Assembly (NCBI GenBank): GCA_008501785.1
Contig: QQUD01000901.1
Coordinates: 1-5,288, forward strand
Direction of reading: 5' to 3'
Length of the DNA: 5,288 bases
DNA from: Chloroflexota bacterium
GTDB taxonomy: Bacteria; Chloroflexota; Anaerolineae; Promineifilales; Promineifilaceae
Under the pieces are notes generated by a model. That model was not told the origin of the DNA. It did not search any database and saw only the letters and a list, made by a program, of their open reading frames with translations. Position numbers and translations under genes: made by a program. Positions 1-4,476 of this stretch are shown here, piece by piece (within the stretch, counting starts at the first letter, position 1; every line of letters begins with the position of its first letter).

Positions 1-575
1 TGATTCTGGCAACGTTTGATGATCCTGATTGGGTACATGAACTGCTGCGTATACTTTACCGTCGCAAAGAGACGTATGTGCGTTCGCTGACAGGGGCAAA
101 GTATGATTTATTAGAGCTAGGTGGCGGCGATGCATCAAACACAGTTATTTCTCCCAAGATTTTTAGGAAATTTGTGGCTCCATATGACACAAAGCTGATA
201 GAATTAGCGCACGAAGCCGGACAGCGGATTGCGTACCATACTTGTGGCGGCATGATGCGGATTTTAGAAGACATTGCGGCAATGAATCCGGATGCGATGG
301 AGACGTTTACACCCCCAGACATGGGTGGGGATGCGCGATTAGCAGAAGCGAAGCAGCGAATTGGAACTAAGGTTTGTATGATTGGTGGGTTTGACCAGCA
401 CCATTACTTTGTGGGGTGCAGTGAGGAAGAGACGAGAACGGCCGTTAAGCGCTGTTTTGCCGCAGCCGGAGTAGGTGGCGGCTACATCCTCAGCCCGTCT
501 GACCACTTTTTTGATGCTGATCCGAAATTATTAGCCGCGTTTGCAGATGAAGCGCGGAATTGTGTTTATGAATAA
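1..575 (+). CDS. UROD/MtaA-family corrinoid-linked methyltransferase, C-terminal part
   Basis: The open frame enters at the left edge (first complete codon at 3) and gives 190 residues ending at TAA 573-575, so the N-terminal part, probably 150-190 residues, lies outside. The visible part matches the C-terminal half of the uroporphyrinogen-decarboxylase superfamily: H-T-C-G-G at visible residues 79-83, E-T-F-T-P-P at 100-105, and I-L-S-P-S-D-H-F-F near the end. In the methylcobamide methyltransferases MtaA and MtbA, the H-x-C pair binds the zinc that activates the methyl-accepting thiol. A third zinc ligand, a Cys after the I-L-x-P-x segment, is not seen there; the sequence reads S-D-H instead, so the metal site or acceptor may differ. 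The corrinoid protein gene 61 bp downstream argues for methyl transfer rather than heme synthesis. The substrate is unknown. The acceptor could be tetrahydrofolate or a thiol. Confidence 0.85.
   Translation, partial: ILATFDDPDWVHELLRILYRRKETYVRSLTGAKYDLLELGGGDASNTVISPKIFRKFVAPYDTKLIELAHEAGQRIAYHTCGGMMRILEDIAAMNPDAMETFTPPDMGGDARLAEAKQRIGTKVCMIGGFDQHHYFVGCSEEETRTAVKRCFAAAGVGGGYILSPSDHFFDADPKLLAAFADEARNCVYE
437..446. repeat. Iterated palindrome copy 1 (AACGGCCGTT)
   Basis: This is a full decamer copy inside the methyltransferase gene. It is read as ACG-GCC-GTT (Thr-Ala-Val) with the octamer in codon phase 1. It is one of nine ACGGCCGT copies in the window. Confidence 0.85.
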
Positions 576-582
576 TGAGTCC

Positions 583-616
583 AGGTGCATTGCACTTTCC
601 TAAGTGCGTTGCACCT
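583..616 (+). other. Intercistronic hairpin between methyltransferase and corrinoid genes
   Basis: The arms 583-597 and 602-616 pair around a TCCT loop. There are 7 bp at the base (AGGTGCA with TGCACCT), then one T-T mismatch, one T-G wobble and 6 bp at the top (GCACTT with AAGTGC). The element starts 7 nt after the upstream stop codon and ends 9 nt before the Shine-Dalgarno of the next gene. No T-run follows, so it does not look like an intrinsic terminator. By inference it is an mRNA processing or stability element that sets the ratio of the two products, or a protein-binding site. Confidence 0.7.
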
Positions 617-625
617 CACAAAATA

Positions 626-631
626 GAGGTG
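626..631 (+). promoter_or_regulatory. Shine-Dalgarno of the corrinoid protein gene
   Basis: GAGGTG lies 4 nt before the ATG at 636 (GAGG core 6 nt before). This supports 636 as the start. Confidence 0.7.
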
Positions 632-635
632 TGAG

Positions 636-1268
636 ATGGAAAATGTTCTAGACAAAATTTTTGATGCAATTTTAGATGGTGATATGAAGACTGTGCCAGA
701 AGGGGTACAAGCTGCTTTAGATAGCGGCATTGCGGCTGAGAAAATTTTGCATGAAGGCATGATTGCTGCCATGGAAGAGGTCGGACAACTCTTTGAGGAT
801 GGCGAATATTTTGTACCCGAGATGTTGATTGCTGCGCGAGCAATGAAAGCTGGCTTAGAAAAACTGCGACCCCATCTGGTCGATTCTGGCATTGAGCCAA
901 TTGGCAAAGTCGCGCTGGGTACGGTTGAAGGCGACTTGCACGATATTGGCAAAAACCTGGTAGCGATGATGTTGGAAGGAGCCGGATTTGAGATTAATGA
1001 TTTGGGAACCGATGTAACCCCAGCTCAATTTGTCGAAGCTGTGCAAGATGGCGCAAATATCATTGGGTTGTCAGCATTGTTGACCACCACATTAACCAGC
1101 ATGGAAGGAACCGTAAAAGCAATTGAAGCCGCTGGACTGCGTGACAATACCAAGATTATGGTAGGCGGTGCGCCAGTAACGGTCGATTATGCCAAACGCA
1201 TTGGTGCCGATGGTTACGCTCAAGATGCCAGTCAAGCCGTTTCAATGGCCAAGTCATTGATAGCTTGA
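636..1268 (+). CDS. Corrinoid (B12-binding) methyl-carrier protein, MtbC/MtaC/MttC family
   Basis: The gene encodes a complete 210-residue protein, the usual length of MtaC/MtbC/MttC-type corrinoid proteins. Residues 1-85 form the helical cap domain (M-I-A-A-M-E-E-V-G near 42-50, then P-E-M-L-I-A-A-R-A-M at 61-70). Residues about 88-210 form the Rossmann-like B12-binding domain. D100-L-H102-D-I-G105 is the DxHxxG motif, in which the His is the lower axial cobalt ligand. S146-x-L148 and G177-G178 match the SxL and GG motifs that contact the corrinoid tail. It is a cytosolic carrier that shuttles a methyl group on cobalt between a substrate-specific methyltransferase and an acceptor enzyme. The UROD-fold enzyme encoded just upstream is the probable partner. 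No substrate methyltransferase (MttB-like) or reductive activator (RamA-like) is in view, so the methyl donor cannot be named. Lone UROD-corrinoid pairs also occur in demethylation pathways for methoxylated or methylamine compounds. Confidence 0.93.
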   Translation: MENVLDKIFDAILDGDMKTVPEGVQAALDSGIAAEKILHEGMIAAMEEVGQLFEDGEYFVPEMLIAARAMKAGLEKLRPHLVDSGIEPIGKVALGTVEGDLHDIGKNLVAMMLEGAGFEINDLGTDVTPAQFVEAVQDGANIIGLSALLTTTLTSMEGTVKAIEAAGLRDNTKIMVGGAPVTVDYAKRIGADGYAQDASQAVSMAKSLIA

Positions 1269-1304
1269 GTAATTGTAAAATAGAATGAACCGTAGATGAC
1301 ACTC

Positions 1305-1369
1305 AAATAAGTTAGTCAAGATTGGTTCAATCTCCGAAGATTGAACCAATCTAAACGAGCAAGTTATTT
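1305..1369. repeat. Long imperfect inverted repeat with perfect 15-bp core stem
   Basis: The core arms 1319-1333 (AGATTGGTTCAATCT) and 1338-1352 are perfect reverse complements around the tetraloop CCGA. An outer pair, AAATAAGTT at 1305-1313 and AAGTTATTT at 1361-1369, extends the structure with 8 of 9 pairs across unpaired stretches of 5 and 8 nt. It starts 36 bp after the corrinoid gene. There is no T-run after the stem on either strand, so a simple intrinsic terminator is unlikely. A nearby shorter pair, AACGAG 1354-1359 with CTCGTT 1374-1379, would compete with the outer arms. It could be a REP/MITE-like dispersed repeat or a structured 3' end of the corrinoid transcript. Confidence 0.8.
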
Positions 1370-1491
1370 AATTCTCGTTCTTAAGAAATATGGTAGGTTC
1401 CACGTAGAAGTAAAAGCCAGCCCCCTGGTTTTCCGAAACAAAAAGCTCATTGGGTATAAAAAACTACACAGAAAAACTGTGTTCTAAATAA
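1370..1491. other. AT-rich intergenic stretch with no gene
   Basis: No convincing reading frame or exporter N-terminus is found here. A short perfect hairpin lies at 1466-1482 (ACACAG, loop AAAAA, CTGTGT). A TATAAA box at 1455-1460 has only a poor -35 candidate (TTCCGA, 1431-1436, 18 bp spacing). An in-frame TAA at 1489-1491 closes the upstream side of the LysE remnant frame. Confidence 0.5.
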
Positions 1492-1503
1492 GCTCTGACT
1501 AGT

Positions 1504-1555
1504 ACAGTCCGGCTGAAGTACGTGGTCGATAACGAAAGGGTGATCGCCGGACTGT
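1504..1555. repeat. Inverted repeat straddling the 5' break of the LysE remnant
   Basis: ACAGTCCGGC at 1504-1513 is the exact reverse complement of GCCGGACTGT at 1546-1555, with 32 bp between. The right arm lies in recognisable exporter coding sequence (Ala-Gly-Leu-Phe). The left arm lies in sequence without exporter similarity. The arrangement fits a fold-back rearrangement at the truncation point, or chance secondary structure. Confidence 0.6.
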
Positions 1556-1848
1556 TTGTGATTGTCAATGTTTTGAATCCGAAAACCGCCCTATTCTTCT
1601 TTGCTTTTTTGCCACAATTTGTATCTCCATCTGTGGAACCAGTGGCTCCACAAATCTTATTTTTGGGTGCTCTTTTTGTGGGAATGGCTATTGTGAGTGA
1701 TGGTATTTATGCGTTGATTGCGGGGACGGCGGGACAGTTTTTATCGGGAAATGTGCGGGTTGCGCGTTTTCAAAAGAGAATGGCGGGCACGATTTATATT
1801 TTGTTGGGAATAACAACGGCCGTTTCTGGAAACGGCCGTTCACAATAA
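1522..1848 (+). pseudogene. LysE/RhtB-family amino-acid exporter, C-terminal remnant
   Basis: From a GTG at 1522 the frame gives 108 residues, against about 200-210 for intact LysE/RhtB exporters. V-N-V-L-N-P-K-T-A-L-F-F-F-A-F-L-P-Q-F (residues 15-33) is the hallmark mid-protein N-P-K segment. Hydrophobic stretches at about 8-30, 44-70 and 87-101 correspond to the last membrane helices. The N-terminal half with its P-G-P motif is absent, and the frame is closed upstream by TAA at 1489-1491. No good Shine-Dalgarno precedes the GTG: the AAGG-like bases at 1537-1540 are inside the frame. Similarity starts close to residue 6, near an inverted repeat. The last codons (T-A-V-S-G-N-G-R-S-Q) are made of two ACGGCCGT palindromes. 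The intact family exports amino acids such as homoserine, threonine or lysine through the inner membrane; this piece is very unlikely to work. A short functional half-transporter is the less likely alternative. Confidence 0.8.
1815..1840. terminator. 12-bp palindromic hairpin at a convergent gene junction (weak terminator candidate)
   Basis: AACGGCCGTTTC at 1815-1826 and GAAACGGCCGTT at 1829-1840 are perfect reverse complements separated by TG, so about 11 bp can form around a 4-nt loop. It covers the final codons of the LysE remnant and ends 24 bp from the stop codon of the convergent MOSC gene. Its position suits bidirectional termination, but there is no T-run on either side. The stem is made of two adjacent copies of the iterated palindrome (octamers at 1816-1823 and 1832-1839). 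The first copy is read Thr-Ala-Val and the second Asn-Gly-Arg, so neighbouring copies use different codon phases. Confidence 0.5.
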
Positions 1849-1864
1849 CCAAATTAAATCGAAC

Positions 1865-2425
1865 TCAGTTCACTTTCGAAACAACATCATCAGCACGCAC
1901 AATTCCTGGCTGCACAACTTTTGCATTCAGTCCGCGCAGTTTGAGCGATTTGTACGTGGGGCCATTCACAAATCTGAGTGCGTCCCGGCCAAAGCGAGTT
2001 GCAAATTTATCACATCCAGCATGAACCTGGTCGGTGATTTCGATAACGGCCGTTCCCACCCTCAACTGCGTCCCCGGTGGCAAATTGTCAACACTCAAGT
2101 CTAAATCAACAAATAGCTGATCACCAGCCAGTTCCCACCGTTCCTTATCTTGTGCCAGCAAATCAATAACACGGCTGTTCATGATGTTGAGCTGCATCTC
2201 TGGATGAGATGAACCGTCTGGTGTGCGACCGCTGCCGCGCTCTTTCCAGCAATCACCAACGAGTCCTTCGCTGAGCGAGAGTTCGCCTTCGCTGAGGACA
2301 ACGCGGTTGTTGGAAGACGGCCGTTTTACAATCATCTTTAACAGTCCGTTATCCTTTGGTGATTGCCGAATCTCATCTAATCCCGCTTCCAATTCCGCCA
2401 TCGATAAATGCACTAAGGTTTTCAT
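1865..2425 (-). CDS. MOSC domain-containing protein
   Basis: The gene encodes a complete 186-residue protein with ATG at 2425-2423. The MOSC (molybdenum cofactor sulfurase C-terminal) core begins at G-L-V-G-D (54-58) and contains Q-L-N-I-M-N (78-83), W-E-L-A-G-D-Q-L-F-V-D-L-D-L (97-110) and H-A-G-C138-D-K-F. It closes with the R-G-L-N-A/V-V-Q-P-G-I-V-R segment near 164-177. C138 matches the conserved Cys of the superfamily, which is thought to carry sulfur or bind the molybdopterin ligand. No signal peptide or membrane helix is seen, so the protein is probably cytosolic. Stand-alone MOSC proteins include YiiM- and YuaD-type proteins (the former linked to N-hydroxylated purine detoxification with molybdenum cofactor), but nothing here fixes the substrate. 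It converges with the LysE remnant (16-bp gap) and diverges from the ankyrin gene. Confidence 0.9.
   Translation of the reverse strand: MKTLVHLSMAELEAGLDEIRQSPKDNGLLKMIVKRPSSNNRVVLSEGELSLSEGLVGDCWKERGSGRTPDGSSHPEMQLNIMNSRVIDLLAQDKERWELAGDQLFVDLDLSVDNLPPGTQLRVGTAVIEITDQVHAGCDKFATRFGRDALRFVNGPTYKSLKLRGLNAKVVQPGIVRADDVVSKVN
2045..2054. repeat. Iterated palindrome copy 4 (AACGGCCGTT)
   Basis: A full decamer in the MOSC gene, read on the minus strand as Thr-Ala-Val within G-T-A-V-I-E-I (124-130). Confidence 0.85.
2317..2324. repeat. Iterated palindrome copy 5 (ACGGCCGT)
   Basis: An octamer in the MOSC gene, read on the minus strand across AAA-CGG-CCG-TCT (Lys-Arg-Pro-Ser, residues 34-37). This is the third possible codon phase and the only copy using it. 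Confidence 0.85.
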
Positions 2426-2431
2426 AGCATG

Positions 2432-2437
2432 TCTCCT
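2432..2437 (-). promoter_or_regulatory. Shine-Dalgarno of the MOSC gene
   Basis: The minus strand reads AGGAGA 6 nt before the ATG at 2425. An overlapping ATG at 2430 runs into TGA two codons later, so 2425 is the real start. Confidence 0.75.
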
Positions 2438-2492
2438 ATCTCAAAAAATTTTGCTGTAAACAAGCCTCCTACGCCTGAATCACAACTTTTCC

Positions 2493-2500
2493 ATTATAAT
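2493..2500. promoter_or_regulatory. Symmetric -10 box in the divergent MOSC/ankyrin gap
   Basis: ATTATAAT is its own reverse complement, so a consensus TATAAT is present on both strands (plus 2495-2500, minus 2498-2493). On the plus strand it lies 32 bp before the ankyrin ATG; on the minus strand it lies about 68 bp before the MOSC ATG. No good -35 hexamer is visible at 16-18 bp on either side. A single shared bidirectional promoter is an inference. Confidence 0.5.
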
Positions 2501-2526
2501 GAACTTCCAAAACGGAGCATAAGCCT

Positions 2527-3897
2527 ATGTCAAATTGGTTCAACCGTCTGAGAAACCGATTAACAAATCAAAAAAGTGACCCACAACCCGATCATTCGCA
2601 AACAATCAATCGCTTTTTACCCATTATCGAGGGTGACGATTTTGATTCAATTGAGGAAGCTCGCGGCTTTGTGCAGCCAGAAGATATCGAACCATTGATT
2701 GCACTATACTGGCGGCTGGACAGTTGGCAGCAAAAACGGGCGCTGGTGGATGTGATGCAGGATCAATACCATCCCGATATGCAAAAGATGATGCTCGATT
2801 TTTTGCGAGCACCGATGGCTGAGGGGGATGAATGGGTGGAGTTGGCAAAGGCAGTCGCGCTGGGCTTTATGGATGAAAAGTATGATCGGTTTATGACCTA
2901 TTACAACGACCGCAAGCTGTTGGCCCACGACGTAAAAGAAGTGCTGCGCAAAAATGGTTTGGCGGCTAAACCTGTGCCTGAACCCGAAAAACTGGCACCG
3001 AAACCAGCGCAGAAAATTGATGAAACCAAGTCGCCGAATCAGCGGTTGATGGATGCGGCGACGGTGGGGGAGTTAACGGCCGTTAAAACAGCCCTCACTG
3101 ACGGTGCCAACATCAACGTCACCATTGGTGGCGGCAACTACGATGGCTGTTCGGCGCTGATGATGGCGCTGATGCGCAAACGATTCGATGTGGCCGACTA
3201 CCTGATTGACCTGGGAGCCGACGTGAACCACAAACGCCCTGCAAAACACACACCAGACCGCACACGCGGACAAACGCCACTTTGGTGGGCAGCCAATCAT
3301 GGGCATCTGGCAGTTGCACGAAAACTGATTGATAAAGGCGCTGATGTGAACACAGCGGACCATCACGGCGGCACGCCGCTGACCACTTCTGCAAGTTCAG
3401 GGCATTTGGATATGGTCAAATTTTTGGTTGCTGAAGGGGCTGATGTACACGCGCAGATTTATGACGGCCGTAAAGCGTTTAATCTAGCGGTGACAAACGG
3501 CCGTAAACGCGTCGCCGAATATCTGCTGATGGTTGGCAACGAACCCAACGAATCTGGCAGCAGCGGCTACACACCGCTCATGATTGCTGCCGAAAATAAC
3601 TTTATGGACCTGGCAAAGCTGCTGCTCAAACAGGGCGCGGATGTGAACGCGGTGCATTCTGGCCCAGGTATTTACGTGGCAATGCGTGGGTGGACACCTC
3701 TGGTTTTCGCGGTTCGATCAGGCTATGTGCGAATGACCAAACTGTTGATTCAGTCGGGGGCAGATGTGAATCATGTGGTGGCGGCTGGTCAAAACTACGA
3801 TGGCAAGCCGCTGCCCGAGCGGCGCGTAATCGATTTTGCCAAAGGCAAACGTGCCGAAAGCATCCTCAAATTACTCCGTGACGCGGGTGCGGAGTAG
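2527..3897 (+). CDS. Ankyrin-repeat protein with uncharacterised helical N-terminal domain
   Basis: The gene encodes 456 residues with ATG at 2527, preceded by GGAG at 2514-2517 (9 nt spacing). Residues 1-30 are basic then polar and unlikely to be structured. Residues 30-145 form a helix-rich, acidic region (E-E-A-R-G-F-V-Q-P-E-D-I-E-P-L-I, W-Q-Q-K-R-A-L-V-D-V-M) that I cannot assign to a family; HEAT-like helices are possible. Residues 146-170 are a Pro/Lys/Glu-rich linker. Ankyrin repeats follow at about 172-204, 205-236, 247-278, 279-311, 312-343, 345-378, 386-418 and a degenerate one at 425-455. Clear examples are T-P-L-W-W-A-A-N-H-G-H-L and the recurring G-A-D-V-N. Loops between repeats 2 and 3 (about 237-246) and 6 and 7 (about 377-386) are longer than usual. 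There is no signal peptide or membrane helix, so the protein is probably cytosolic. Ankyrin repeats bind proteins; the partner is unknown. No toxin, protease or effector domain is attached. Confidence 0.93.
   Translation: MSNWFNRLRNRLTNQKSDPQPDHSQTINRFLPIIEGDDFDSIEEARGFVQPEDIEPLIALYWRLDSWQQKRALVDVMQDQYHPDMQKMMLDFLRAPMAEGDEWVELAKAVALGFMDEKYDRFMTYYNDRKLLAHDVKEVLRKNGLAAKPVPEPEKLAPKPAQKIDETKSPNQRLMDAATVGELTAVKTALTDGANINVTIGGGNYDGCSALMMALMRKRFDVADYLIDLGADVNHKRPAKHTPDRTRGQTPLWWAANHGHLAVARKLIDKGADVNTADHHGGTPLTTSASSGHLDMVKFLVAEGADVHAQIYDGRKAFNLAVTNGRKRVAEYLLMVGNEPNESGSSGYTPLMIAAENNFMDLAKLLLKQGADVNAVHSGPGIYVAMRGWTPLVFAVRSGYVRMTKLLIQSGADVNHVVAAGQNYDGKPLPERRVIDFAKGKRAESILKLLRDAGAE
3073..3086. repeat. 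Iterated palindrome copy 6, extended to 14 bp
   Basis: TTAACGGCCGTTAA is a perfect 14-bp palindrome and the longest extension of the core in the window. It encodes Leu-Thr-Ala-Val-Lys (183-187) at the start of the first ankyrin repeat. Confidence 0.85.
3464..3471. repeat. Iterated palindrome copy 7 (ACGGCCGT)
   Basis: An octamer in the ankyrin gene, read GAC-GGC-CGT-AAA (Asp-Gly-Arg-Lys, 313-316). The next copy starts 33 bp downstream, exactly 11 codons later and in the same phase, but within the same ankyrin repeat (312-343). Confidence 0.85.
3497..3504. repeat. Iterated palindrome copy 8 (ACGGCCGT)
   Basis: An octamer in the ankyrin gene, read AAC-GGC-CGT-AAA (Asn-Gly-Arg-Lys, 324-327). 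It occupies the loop where canonical repeats have N-G-H-x-x-V. Confidence 0.85.
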
Positions 3898-3978
3898 TTT
3901 TTAGACCCCAAAGGTCCAAACCATATTTGCACACGAACGAATGCCGCGCAATACTAAGGTCATAGCCGTTGTCGCAAA

Positions 3979-3983
3979 GAGGG
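3979..3983 (+). promoter_or_regulatory. Shine-Dalgarno of the thioesterase gene
   Basis: GAGGG lies 7 nt before the ATG at 3991. This favours that start over the in-frame ATG at 4000, whose spacing would be 16 nt. Confidence 0.65.
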
Positions 3984-3990
3984 CAACACA

Positions 3991-4428
3991 ATGAATGAGA
4001 TGTCGAAAATGCCGATAACAATCGAAGACTTTCCTTTCAAAACCTTTGACAAAGTGCGTTATGGCGATACCGATCGGCAGGGGCATGTGAACAATGCCGC
4101 CTTTTCTACCTATTTAGAAACCGGCCGCGTCGAGTTTCTCTATAATGTACAAAACTTATTAACGGCAGACAATGCGTCCTTTGTTATTGTTAGTCTCAGT
4201 TTGAATTTTGTGGCCGAAGTCAACTGGCCCGGGCAGATTGACATTGGCACCGGCGTCACGAAGGTTGGCAATAGTTCTGTAAGCTTCTATCAAGGTTTGT
4301 TTCAAAATGGGCGCTGTGTGGCCACGGCCGAAACTGTCATTGTGCAAATAAGTGAGCACACCAGAAAGTCGTCCCCATTGTCTGACAAAGCAAAGGACTT
4401 TTTCACACAACATAAGTTAACACCGTAG
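3991..4428 (+). CDS. Acyl-CoA thioesterase, 4HBT-type hotdog fold
   Basis: The gene encodes a complete 145-residue protein, typical for single-hotdog thioesterases of the 4HBT/YbgC/FadM group. The signature is V-R-Y-G-D-T-D28-R-Q-G-H-V-N-N (22-35), where D28 aligns with the catalytic Asp of Pseudomonas 4-hydroxybenzoyl-CoA thioesterase. F-S-T-Y-L-E-T-G-R-V-E-F-L follows and forms the long hot-dog helix. The remaining sequence alternates beta strands (I-D-I-G-T-G-V-T-K-V-G, S-S-V-S-F-Y-Q-G-L-F, V-A-T-A-E-T-V-I-V). Such enzymes act as cytosolic dimers or tetramers and hydrolyse acyl-CoA to the free acid and CoA. Chain preference cannot be read from the sequence. The gene lies 93 bp after the ankyrin gene on the same strand. 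Co-transcription is possible because no terminator is seen between them. No functional link to its neighbours is apparent. Confidence 0.9.
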   Translation: MNEMSKMPITIEDFPFKTFDKVRYGDTDRQGHVNNAAFSTYLETGRVEFLYNVQNLLTADNASFVIVSLSLNFVAEVNWPGQIDIGTGVTKVGNSSVSFYQGLFQNGRCVATAETVIVQISEHTRKSSPLSDKAKDFFTQHKLTP

Positions 4429-4464
4429 AATTCCATGATGACGCAAAAGGTAGAGAGAAAAAAT

Positions 4465-4476
4465 TAACGGCCGTTA
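4465..4476. repeat. Iterated palindrome copy 9, intergenic, extended to 12 bp
   Basis: TAACGGCCGTTA is the only copy outside coding sequence. It sits 37 bp after the thioesterase stop codon and has no T-run beside it. Confidence 0.85.

Follow-up and report, generated by a model that had tools for sequence, protein, structure and literature searches.

The palindrome ACGGCCGT occurs in nine exact copies in the 5,288-nt window (the whole stretch analysed, from contig QQUD01000901.1 of a Chloroflexota bacterium), and in relatives it is a genome-wide highly iterated palindrome (HIP) of one Chloroflexota lineage, whose members are mostly uncultured. These relatives share the core CGGCCG, surrounded by an outer pair that is A.T, T.A or G.C, or iterate the bare hexamer. 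The word is maintained at the DNA level in genes, intergenic DNA and phage-like DNA, strongly enough to alter proteins. A preliminary description of the window had proposed a genome-wide, DNA-level word similar to HIP1 of cyanobacteria. This is borne out in relatives by the high copy number of the word in 22 of the 396 genomes examined from a single class but in none of a 350-genome sample of the phylum, by its use of all codon phases and intergenic DNA, and by its conservation at synonymous and intergenic positions. Not visible from the window were the change of the outer base pair between relatives and the occurrence of the word on phage-like contigs.

The nine copies in the window amount to about 1,700 per Mb, compared with a mean of 0.07 and a maximum of 1 copy in 200 dinucleotide-preserving shuffles. 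No other octamer, palindromic or not, is as frequent in the window as ACGGCCGT; among the palindromic ones, AAAATTTT comes second with 3 copies. Six of the nine are extended to AACGGCCGTT and two of those six to TAACGGCCGTTA. Our recount agrees with the preliminary description on all nine start positions, on the six decamers and on the 12-bp and 14-bp extensions. The distribution over four unrelated genes on both strands, with one intergenic copy, was likewise verified, as were the codon phases: Thr-Ala-Val is encoded four times, Asn/Asp-Gly-Arg three times and Arg-Pro once (Table 1). At the 3' end of the LysE-like frame, copies 2 and 3 together make an inverted repeat of 26 bp (positions 1815-1840) that is near-perfect, with 24 of 26 positions self-complementary; judging by its sequence, it could form a hairpin.

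To describe the distribution of the word, we used a sample of 396 genomes from the class of the genome carrying locus L002 (titled Thermoflexales bacterium; Chloroflexota). AACGGCCGTT is present in 396-5,060 copies in 19 of these genomes, in 79-149 copies in three and in at most 29 copies in 374; a reversed control word has 0-135 copies. No excess of ACGGCCGT was found in the 22 named relatives examined first (2-221 copies per genome). In a 350-genome sample of the phylum, which included none of the 22 carriers, the octamer never exceeded about 180 per Mb (maximum 646 in 3.6 Mb, G055). A SecA search of the 396 class genomes recovered all 22 within the 31 top-scoring genomes. A SecA tree was built for 30 genomes with one far outgroup; it is derived from this single protein, excludes G168 and G348 and scores two of the 22 carriers as intermediate. 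Carriers are clustered in it, requiring 4 changes compared with a shuffled mean of 7.8. Five word-less neighbours of the carriers form a fully supported group in the same tree.

The strength of the word was measured in stretches of 80-220 kb sampled from each of six genomes, using scripts with a simple open reading frame (ORF) caller. ACGGCCGT is the top palindromic octamer in all six (402 copies in G371, 318 in G260, 212 in G375, 87 in G385, 145 in G380 and 198 in G250), at 1.09-2.23 per kb. The count against a Markov model proposed in the preliminary description, run here on relatives, places the word far above expectation: it is 37-162 times as frequent as predicted by a third-order model with the word masked. 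Under a second-order model, the remaining palindromic octamers with 6 or more copies in these samples stay at or below 4.1-fold. Copies are found in all three codon phases and in intergenic DNA, with coding and intergenic densities of 2.25 and 2.29 per kb in G371 and of 1.1-2.2 and 0.7-1.5 per kb in the other five genomes. There is a mild preference for an additional outer A/T pair around the octamer. Pooled one-off variants show an excess of 1.97 at position 1 and values of 0.5-0.9 inside the word; the word-less genomes have 1.46, and position 3 shows the deficit there too. Two other hexamers are scarce in G371 and G260 (L171-L190): GGGCCC is absent (89 and 115 expected), and AGGCCT has 10 and 8 copies (62 and 58 expected). 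GGGCCC is also rare in the word-less genome G087, with 2 copies in 120 kb.

Other members of the lineage iterate different forms of the word. G114 iterates TCGGCCGA (194 copies in 140 kb, accounting for 194 of its 247 CGGCCG) and G198 iterates GCGGCCGC (96 copies in 54 kb, 96 of 108 CGGCCG). In G220, G365 and G168, it is the bare CGGCCG that is iterated, without strong preference at the outer base; base composition predicts 35, 13 and 13 copies, whereas 327, 216 and 226 are present. G297 has a mixed form. CGGCCG is at chance in the small samples available from G348, G026 and G321 (10, 10 and 20 kb). In the five word-less sister genomes, it reaches 3-4 times the base-composition expectation and, where shown, at most 1.65-fold by a second-order model.

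Conservation between close relatives shows that the word itself is kept. G371 and G400, which have 90% nucleotide identity, share 113 sites, with 8 and 5 unshared. G250/G270 share 61 (1 and 11 unshared), G250/G375 share 84 (8 and 7) and G270/G375 share 59 (5 and 3). The comparison of gain and loss among relatives suggested in the preliminary description was run on these four closest pairs: counted from either genome, 85-98% of sites are retained, compared with 33-63% for control octamers with six G/C (50.7, 62.8, 33.2 and 35.9% identical, in the order of pairs given). Differences at sites between close pairs are mostly of a single base and mostly transitions. Fourfold-degenerate third bases are 97-100% identical within sites and 64-83% identical outside them. 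For G371/G400, such third bases differ at 3 of 223 positions within sites and at 1,843 of 8,379 elsewhere; the figures for G250/G375 are 2 of 171 and 2,333 of 6,567. Intergenic copies, in small numbers, are also retained (8/9, 5/7, 3/3, 5/5, 3/3 and 4/4). Where SecA residues are identical among 18 carriers, 214 of 238 ordered comparisons preserve the octamer exactly, compared with 39,417 of 214,408 (18.4%) for controls; these comparisons overlap and are not independent. Between carriers and word-less relatives, it is kept in 0 of 37. The synonymous and intergenic conservation in relatives supports the earlier proposal that a bias at the DNA level, rather than protein sequence, explains the copies.

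The word also leaves its mark on the proteome. In six A-type genomes, Thr-Ala-Val is 5.8-8.4 times as frequent as expected from residue frequencies and heads the lists of tripeptides seen at least 15 times, setting aside the XXX produced by masked N runs in G375, G198 and G341, which was ignored. Thr-Ala-Val is at 0.97 and 1.1 of expectation in the word-less G087 and G341. The top tripeptide excess differs with the form of the word, being Ser-Ala-Glu in G114 (5.5-fold) and Ala-Ala-Ala in G198 (4.2-fold). In A-type genomes, the word accounts for 69-91% of the occurrences of Tyr/His/Asn/Asp-Gly-Arg, compared with 0 of 45 in G087 and 1 of 19 in G341. A DNA word thus bends protein sequence proteome-wide, towards Thr-Ala-Val, Ser-Ala-Glu or Ala-Ala-Ala depending on the lineage, which matters for inferring selection from protein alignments.

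Sites are seldom close together. In eight genomes, there are 2 gaps of 8-14 bp between sites compared with 21.2 expected, and 11 gaps of 15-21 bp compared with 20.9; longer gaps occur at normal frequency. This deficit is absent from 480 frequent control words (40 short gaps compared with 19.1). The spacing suggests that sites are rarely placed within about 20 bp of each other, as would be expected of a protein footprint. Strict periodicity was rejected, given that gaps are near random except for the short-range deficit. In G371, spacing is more uneven than random (coefficient of variation 1.23 compared with 0.998), with one gap of 7.4 kb.

Phage-like contigs carry the word as well. In a viral collection, at least 120 loci were found through two close copies, and 86 of those listed are at least 5 kb long. 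Outside the close pairs, 14 of these 86 have at least 1 copy per kb and 70 have fewer than 0.3; among the 14, L303 and L358 come from a single contig, and identical ORFs are found in both L291 and L299. A PHROGs scan of ten proteins from four of these loci included a terminase small subunit, a DnaC-like loader, ParA, an antirepressor, an FtsK-like protein and an integrase. Close pairs aside, the phage- or plasmid-like contigs L291, L299, L303, L358 and L340 carry the word 2.1-2.9 times per kb. Their word density equals or exceeds that of the sampled host stretches.

The maintenance of the word can be explained by selection for a binding mark as well as by biased repair. We favour, with about even confidence, a HIP1-like system in which the word is a mark kept by selection through a putative site-specific DNA-binding factor. 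A DNA-recognising protein of two-fold symmetry (a nucleoid, segregation or DNA-processing factor) would contact CGGCCG and one outer base pair. Every site would confer a small advantage; near-misses mutating into the word would be fixed and losses purged. Were the outer contact of the protein to change, the whole genome would slowly follow. Mobile DNA living in these cells would gain the word for the same reason. Three observations make us lean towards selection for such a symmetric factor: sites exclude one another over about 20 bp, the outer pair changes in concert, and the word has spread to phage-like DNA. We propose more tentatively, and with somewhat less than even confidence, that this is an independent HIP system whose reader has a fixed CGGCCG core and an outer contact that evolved from none to A.T, T.A or G.C, each change rewriting thousands of sites and the proteome. 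Phages and plasmids would have to carry the word, which would serve as a replicon-wide mark of identity or processing.

Several points weigh against the binding mark. No binding protein for the word was identified. Coding density is above intergenic density in five of the six sampled genomes, which composition may explain. Three more distant pairs share few sites (3, 14 and 6), with 58-100% retained compared with 35, 20 and 14% for controls. The word encodes Thr-Ala-Val in 89-98% of cases in A-type genomes, a share that is weakened as a clean measure because word-less sisters favour the same codon run; the HIP-poor sister clade also mostly encodes this tripeptide by ACGGCCGTN (11 of 16 in G087, 6 of 9 in G341). 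Codon usage thus contributes to this share, but not to those of the other phases. The deficit of short gaps may partly be what proteins tolerate. The densities of the viral loci are biased upwards because the loci were found through close pairs, and the same scan for viral loci of the TCGGCCGA form gave 0 of 95 of at least 5 kb. In addition, biased repair as strong as selection would yield all of the same observations.

Biased repair or gene conversion was proposed by Elhai for cyanobacterial HIP1 (excerpts of PMC4390886). Applied here, a mismatch-repair or nicking system reading a CGGCCG mark would keep mutations that create the word and revert those that destroy it, and the word might be functionless. 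We consider this the main rival, possible and on balance doubtful. It accords with the involvement of intergenic, coding and mobile DNA alike, with the overriding of amino-acid sequence and with the predominance of single-base transitions between close pairs, and a modest force would suffice for the observed excess (log of about 4). However, Elhai's version, as presented in excerpts of PMC4390886, requires that a cytosine methylase modify a C adjacent to G, and does not select an outer A or T; in 9 of the 22 carriers, no cytosine-5 methylase is seen. The Vsr repair nuclease was rejected as the cause, being present in 9 of 49 genomes and in 5 of the 20 carriers of the octamer. Nor is there any specific depletion of one-off neighbours, which was dropped as a sign of conversion because word-less genomes show the same deficit at position 3 (0.50 against 0.30). 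We regard it as extremely improbable that composition, codon usage or protein-level selection alone produces the word. Codon runs of the type xCG-GCC-Gxx are indeed frequent in GC-rich sister genomes, but the Markov excess, the occurrence in three phases and intergenic DNA and the synonymous conservation all stand against this explanation, and the outer base, hence the favoured tripeptide, varies between relatives. For carriers, it is already refuted.

An unlikely alternative is that the word is a methylation mark, modified by a solitary amino-methyltransferase of 660-700 residues and maintained in modified form as a self-mark or as a repair or replication signal. This enzyme (L440-L468) has motif I ahead of DPPY and zinc-ribbon-like cysteine pairs between the two, and it weakly matches models of DUF1156-type and type II methylases. 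It is present in 19 of 20 octamer-type genomes (G151 being the exception) and in none of the 4 hexamer types, and no restriction gene was seen beside it in the loci read. However, it is also present in all five HIP-poor sisters. Two further word-less genomes (G321, G348) do not have it, G026 has a distant relative alone, and outside the clade 5 of 48 genomes carry it at nearly full length and 2 others carry fragments. Its tree mirrors descent and contains no carrier-only group. The TDPPY motif suits adenine as well as cytosine, and GCGGCCGC is without adenine. The enzyme may be needed, but is not enough. A solitary methyltransferase gene, one of the checks named in the preliminary description, has a candidate that is found in nearly all octamer types and in word-less genomes too. 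The suggestion of a methylase site is weakened in its plain form because cytosine-5 methylase (PF00145) is absent from 9 of 22 carriers, although such gene absences may be gaps in genomes of which the completeness is not given. This methylase was rejected as the cause, with an occurrence of 19 in 40 genomes (13 of 22 carriers, 6 of 18 others) and in 4 of 9 further clade members. The DPPY amino-methyltransferase subfamily of L134, found in 58 of the 396 class genomes at a threshold of at least 52% identity, was also rejected, since it occurs in 10 of 22 carriers but in 48 of 374 others.

As summarized in Table 1, eight of the copies in the window lie in four unrelated genes and one lies between genes. 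The uroporphyrinogen-decarboxylase-like gene followed by the corrinoid protein gene (positions 3-1265) resembles a methyl-transfer pair. A search with the corrinoid protein gave 80 loci at 51-70% identity, many of them in Chloroflexota metagenome bins. The top match (70%, L001) is on a contig labelled as an uncultured gamma proteobacterium and outranks every Chloroflexota match, reflecting either transfer or a wrong label. The LysE-like gene matches the final half of its family profile and, on this sequence evidence, is probably a truncated or frameshifted copy. For the MOSC protein, the nearest named relative is from a metagenome-assembled genome titled 'Anaerolineales bacterium' (75-76% identity); the site of copy 4 reads TAV in four close relatives and SAV or EAV in six more distant ones. 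We infer that the window comes from a member of the word-carrying Chloroflexota lineage.

Table 1. Genes and copies of the palindrome in the 5,288-nt window.
Feature	Coordinates	Strand	Details
Partial uroporphyrinogen-decarboxylase-like gene	3..572	+	PF01208; holds copy 1
Corrinoid (B12-binding) protein gene	636..1265	+	No copy; query for relatives
Partial LysE-type translocator	1522..1845	+	Profile 104-191 of 193; holds copies 2 and 3
MOSC-domain gene	1868..2425	-	Holds copies 4 and 5
Ankyrin-repeat gene	2527..3894	+	Holds copies 6 to 8
ACGGCCGT copy 1	438..445		Within AACGGCCGTT; Thr-Ala-Val, uroporphyrinogen-decarboxylase-like gene
ACGGCCGT copy 2	1816..1823		Within AACGGCCGTT; Thr-Ala-Val, partial LysE-like gene
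ACGGCCGT copy 3	1832..1839		Within AACGGCCGTT; Asn-Gly-Arg, LysE-like reading frame, 16 bp past copy 2
ACGGCCGT copy 4	2046..2053		Within AACGGCCGTT; Thr-Ala-Val, MOSC gene (minus strand)
ACGGCCGT copy 5	2317..2324		Lys-Arg-Pro, MOSC gene
ACGGCCGT copy 6	3076..3083		Middle of 14-bp palindrome TTAACGGCCGTTAA (start 3073); Thr-Ala-Val, ankyrin gene
ACGGCCGT copy 7	3464..3471		Asp-Gly-Arg, ankyrin gene
ACGGCCGT copy 8	3497..3504		Asn-Gly-Arg, ankyrin gene
ACGGCCGT copy 9	4467..4474		Middle of 12-bp palindrome TAACGGCCGTTA (start 4465); intergenic

The word shares features with several known classes of genomic sequence. CGGCCG and GCGGCCGC are the same words as restriction sites of the EagI/NotI type, which correspond to the core and to the octamer of G198. 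Restriction sites are expected to be avoided, whereas this word is over-represented, and a cognate restriction-modification pair was not found, none having been sought by name. Chi and Chi-like sites are also short, over-represented and genome-wide, and there would be a similar reason for their carriage by phages. Typical Chi sites are non-palindromic and strand-oriented, whereas the Chloroflexota word is a palindrome that occurs several times more densely. DNA uptake sequences, unlike the Chloroflexota word, are not known to be palindromes. Those of Neisseria and Pasteurellaceae are similar in that one short word is present in thousands of copies and in all codon phases (in part from excerpts of PMC1939737). 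For Anaerolineae, passages of Hiraoka (2019, PMC6329791) on CL500-11 bins report GANTC, TTAA and GCWGC methylation and contain no CGGCCG. In agreement with the preliminary description, literature searches found no earlier account of the element, as far as the titles and starts of abstracts listed show.

The closest likeness is to the HIPs of cyanobacteria. To our knowledge, HIP1 has been without a settled function for decades; a 2018 study reportedly argued for selection on it. HIPs are palindromic octamers with about 500-2500 copies per Mb, very high observed/expected ratios and one-off variants that differ mostly in the terminal bases, according to excerpts of Elhai (2015, PMC4390886), which list HIP1 as GCGATCGC and the alternates as TCGATCGA, GGGATCCC, GGCGCC and others, and report a methylase for every alternate HIP. 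The Chloroflexota word resembles HIP1 and the alternates of these excerpts in being a dominant perfect palindrome, present genome-wide in coding and non-coding DNA at 1,090-2,230 per Mb in six genomes. Likewise, the alternate TCGATCGA keeps the core and swaps the first and last base (PMC4390886, excerpts), the same pattern as among the Chloroflexota relatives. The systems differ in phylum, in the outer pairs A.T, T.A or G.C and bare-hexamer form seen here, and in core: CGGCCG in the Chloroflexota relatives rather than CGATCG, which upholds the earlier view of HIP1 as a parallel but a different word. In contrast to the alternate HIPs as described in excerpts of PMC4390886, no single methylase family was found to track the Chloroflexota word. 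With the word as an inexpensive marker, metagenome contigs and phages can be assigned to these hosts. By these comparisons, it looks like an independent counterpart of the cyanobacterial HIPs. This second system, found outside the cyanobacterial phylum, includes members that differ only in the outer pair, lack the word or iterate the hexamer alone, and it enables a comparison that cyanobacteria hardly permit, namely for the gene that changes with the word.

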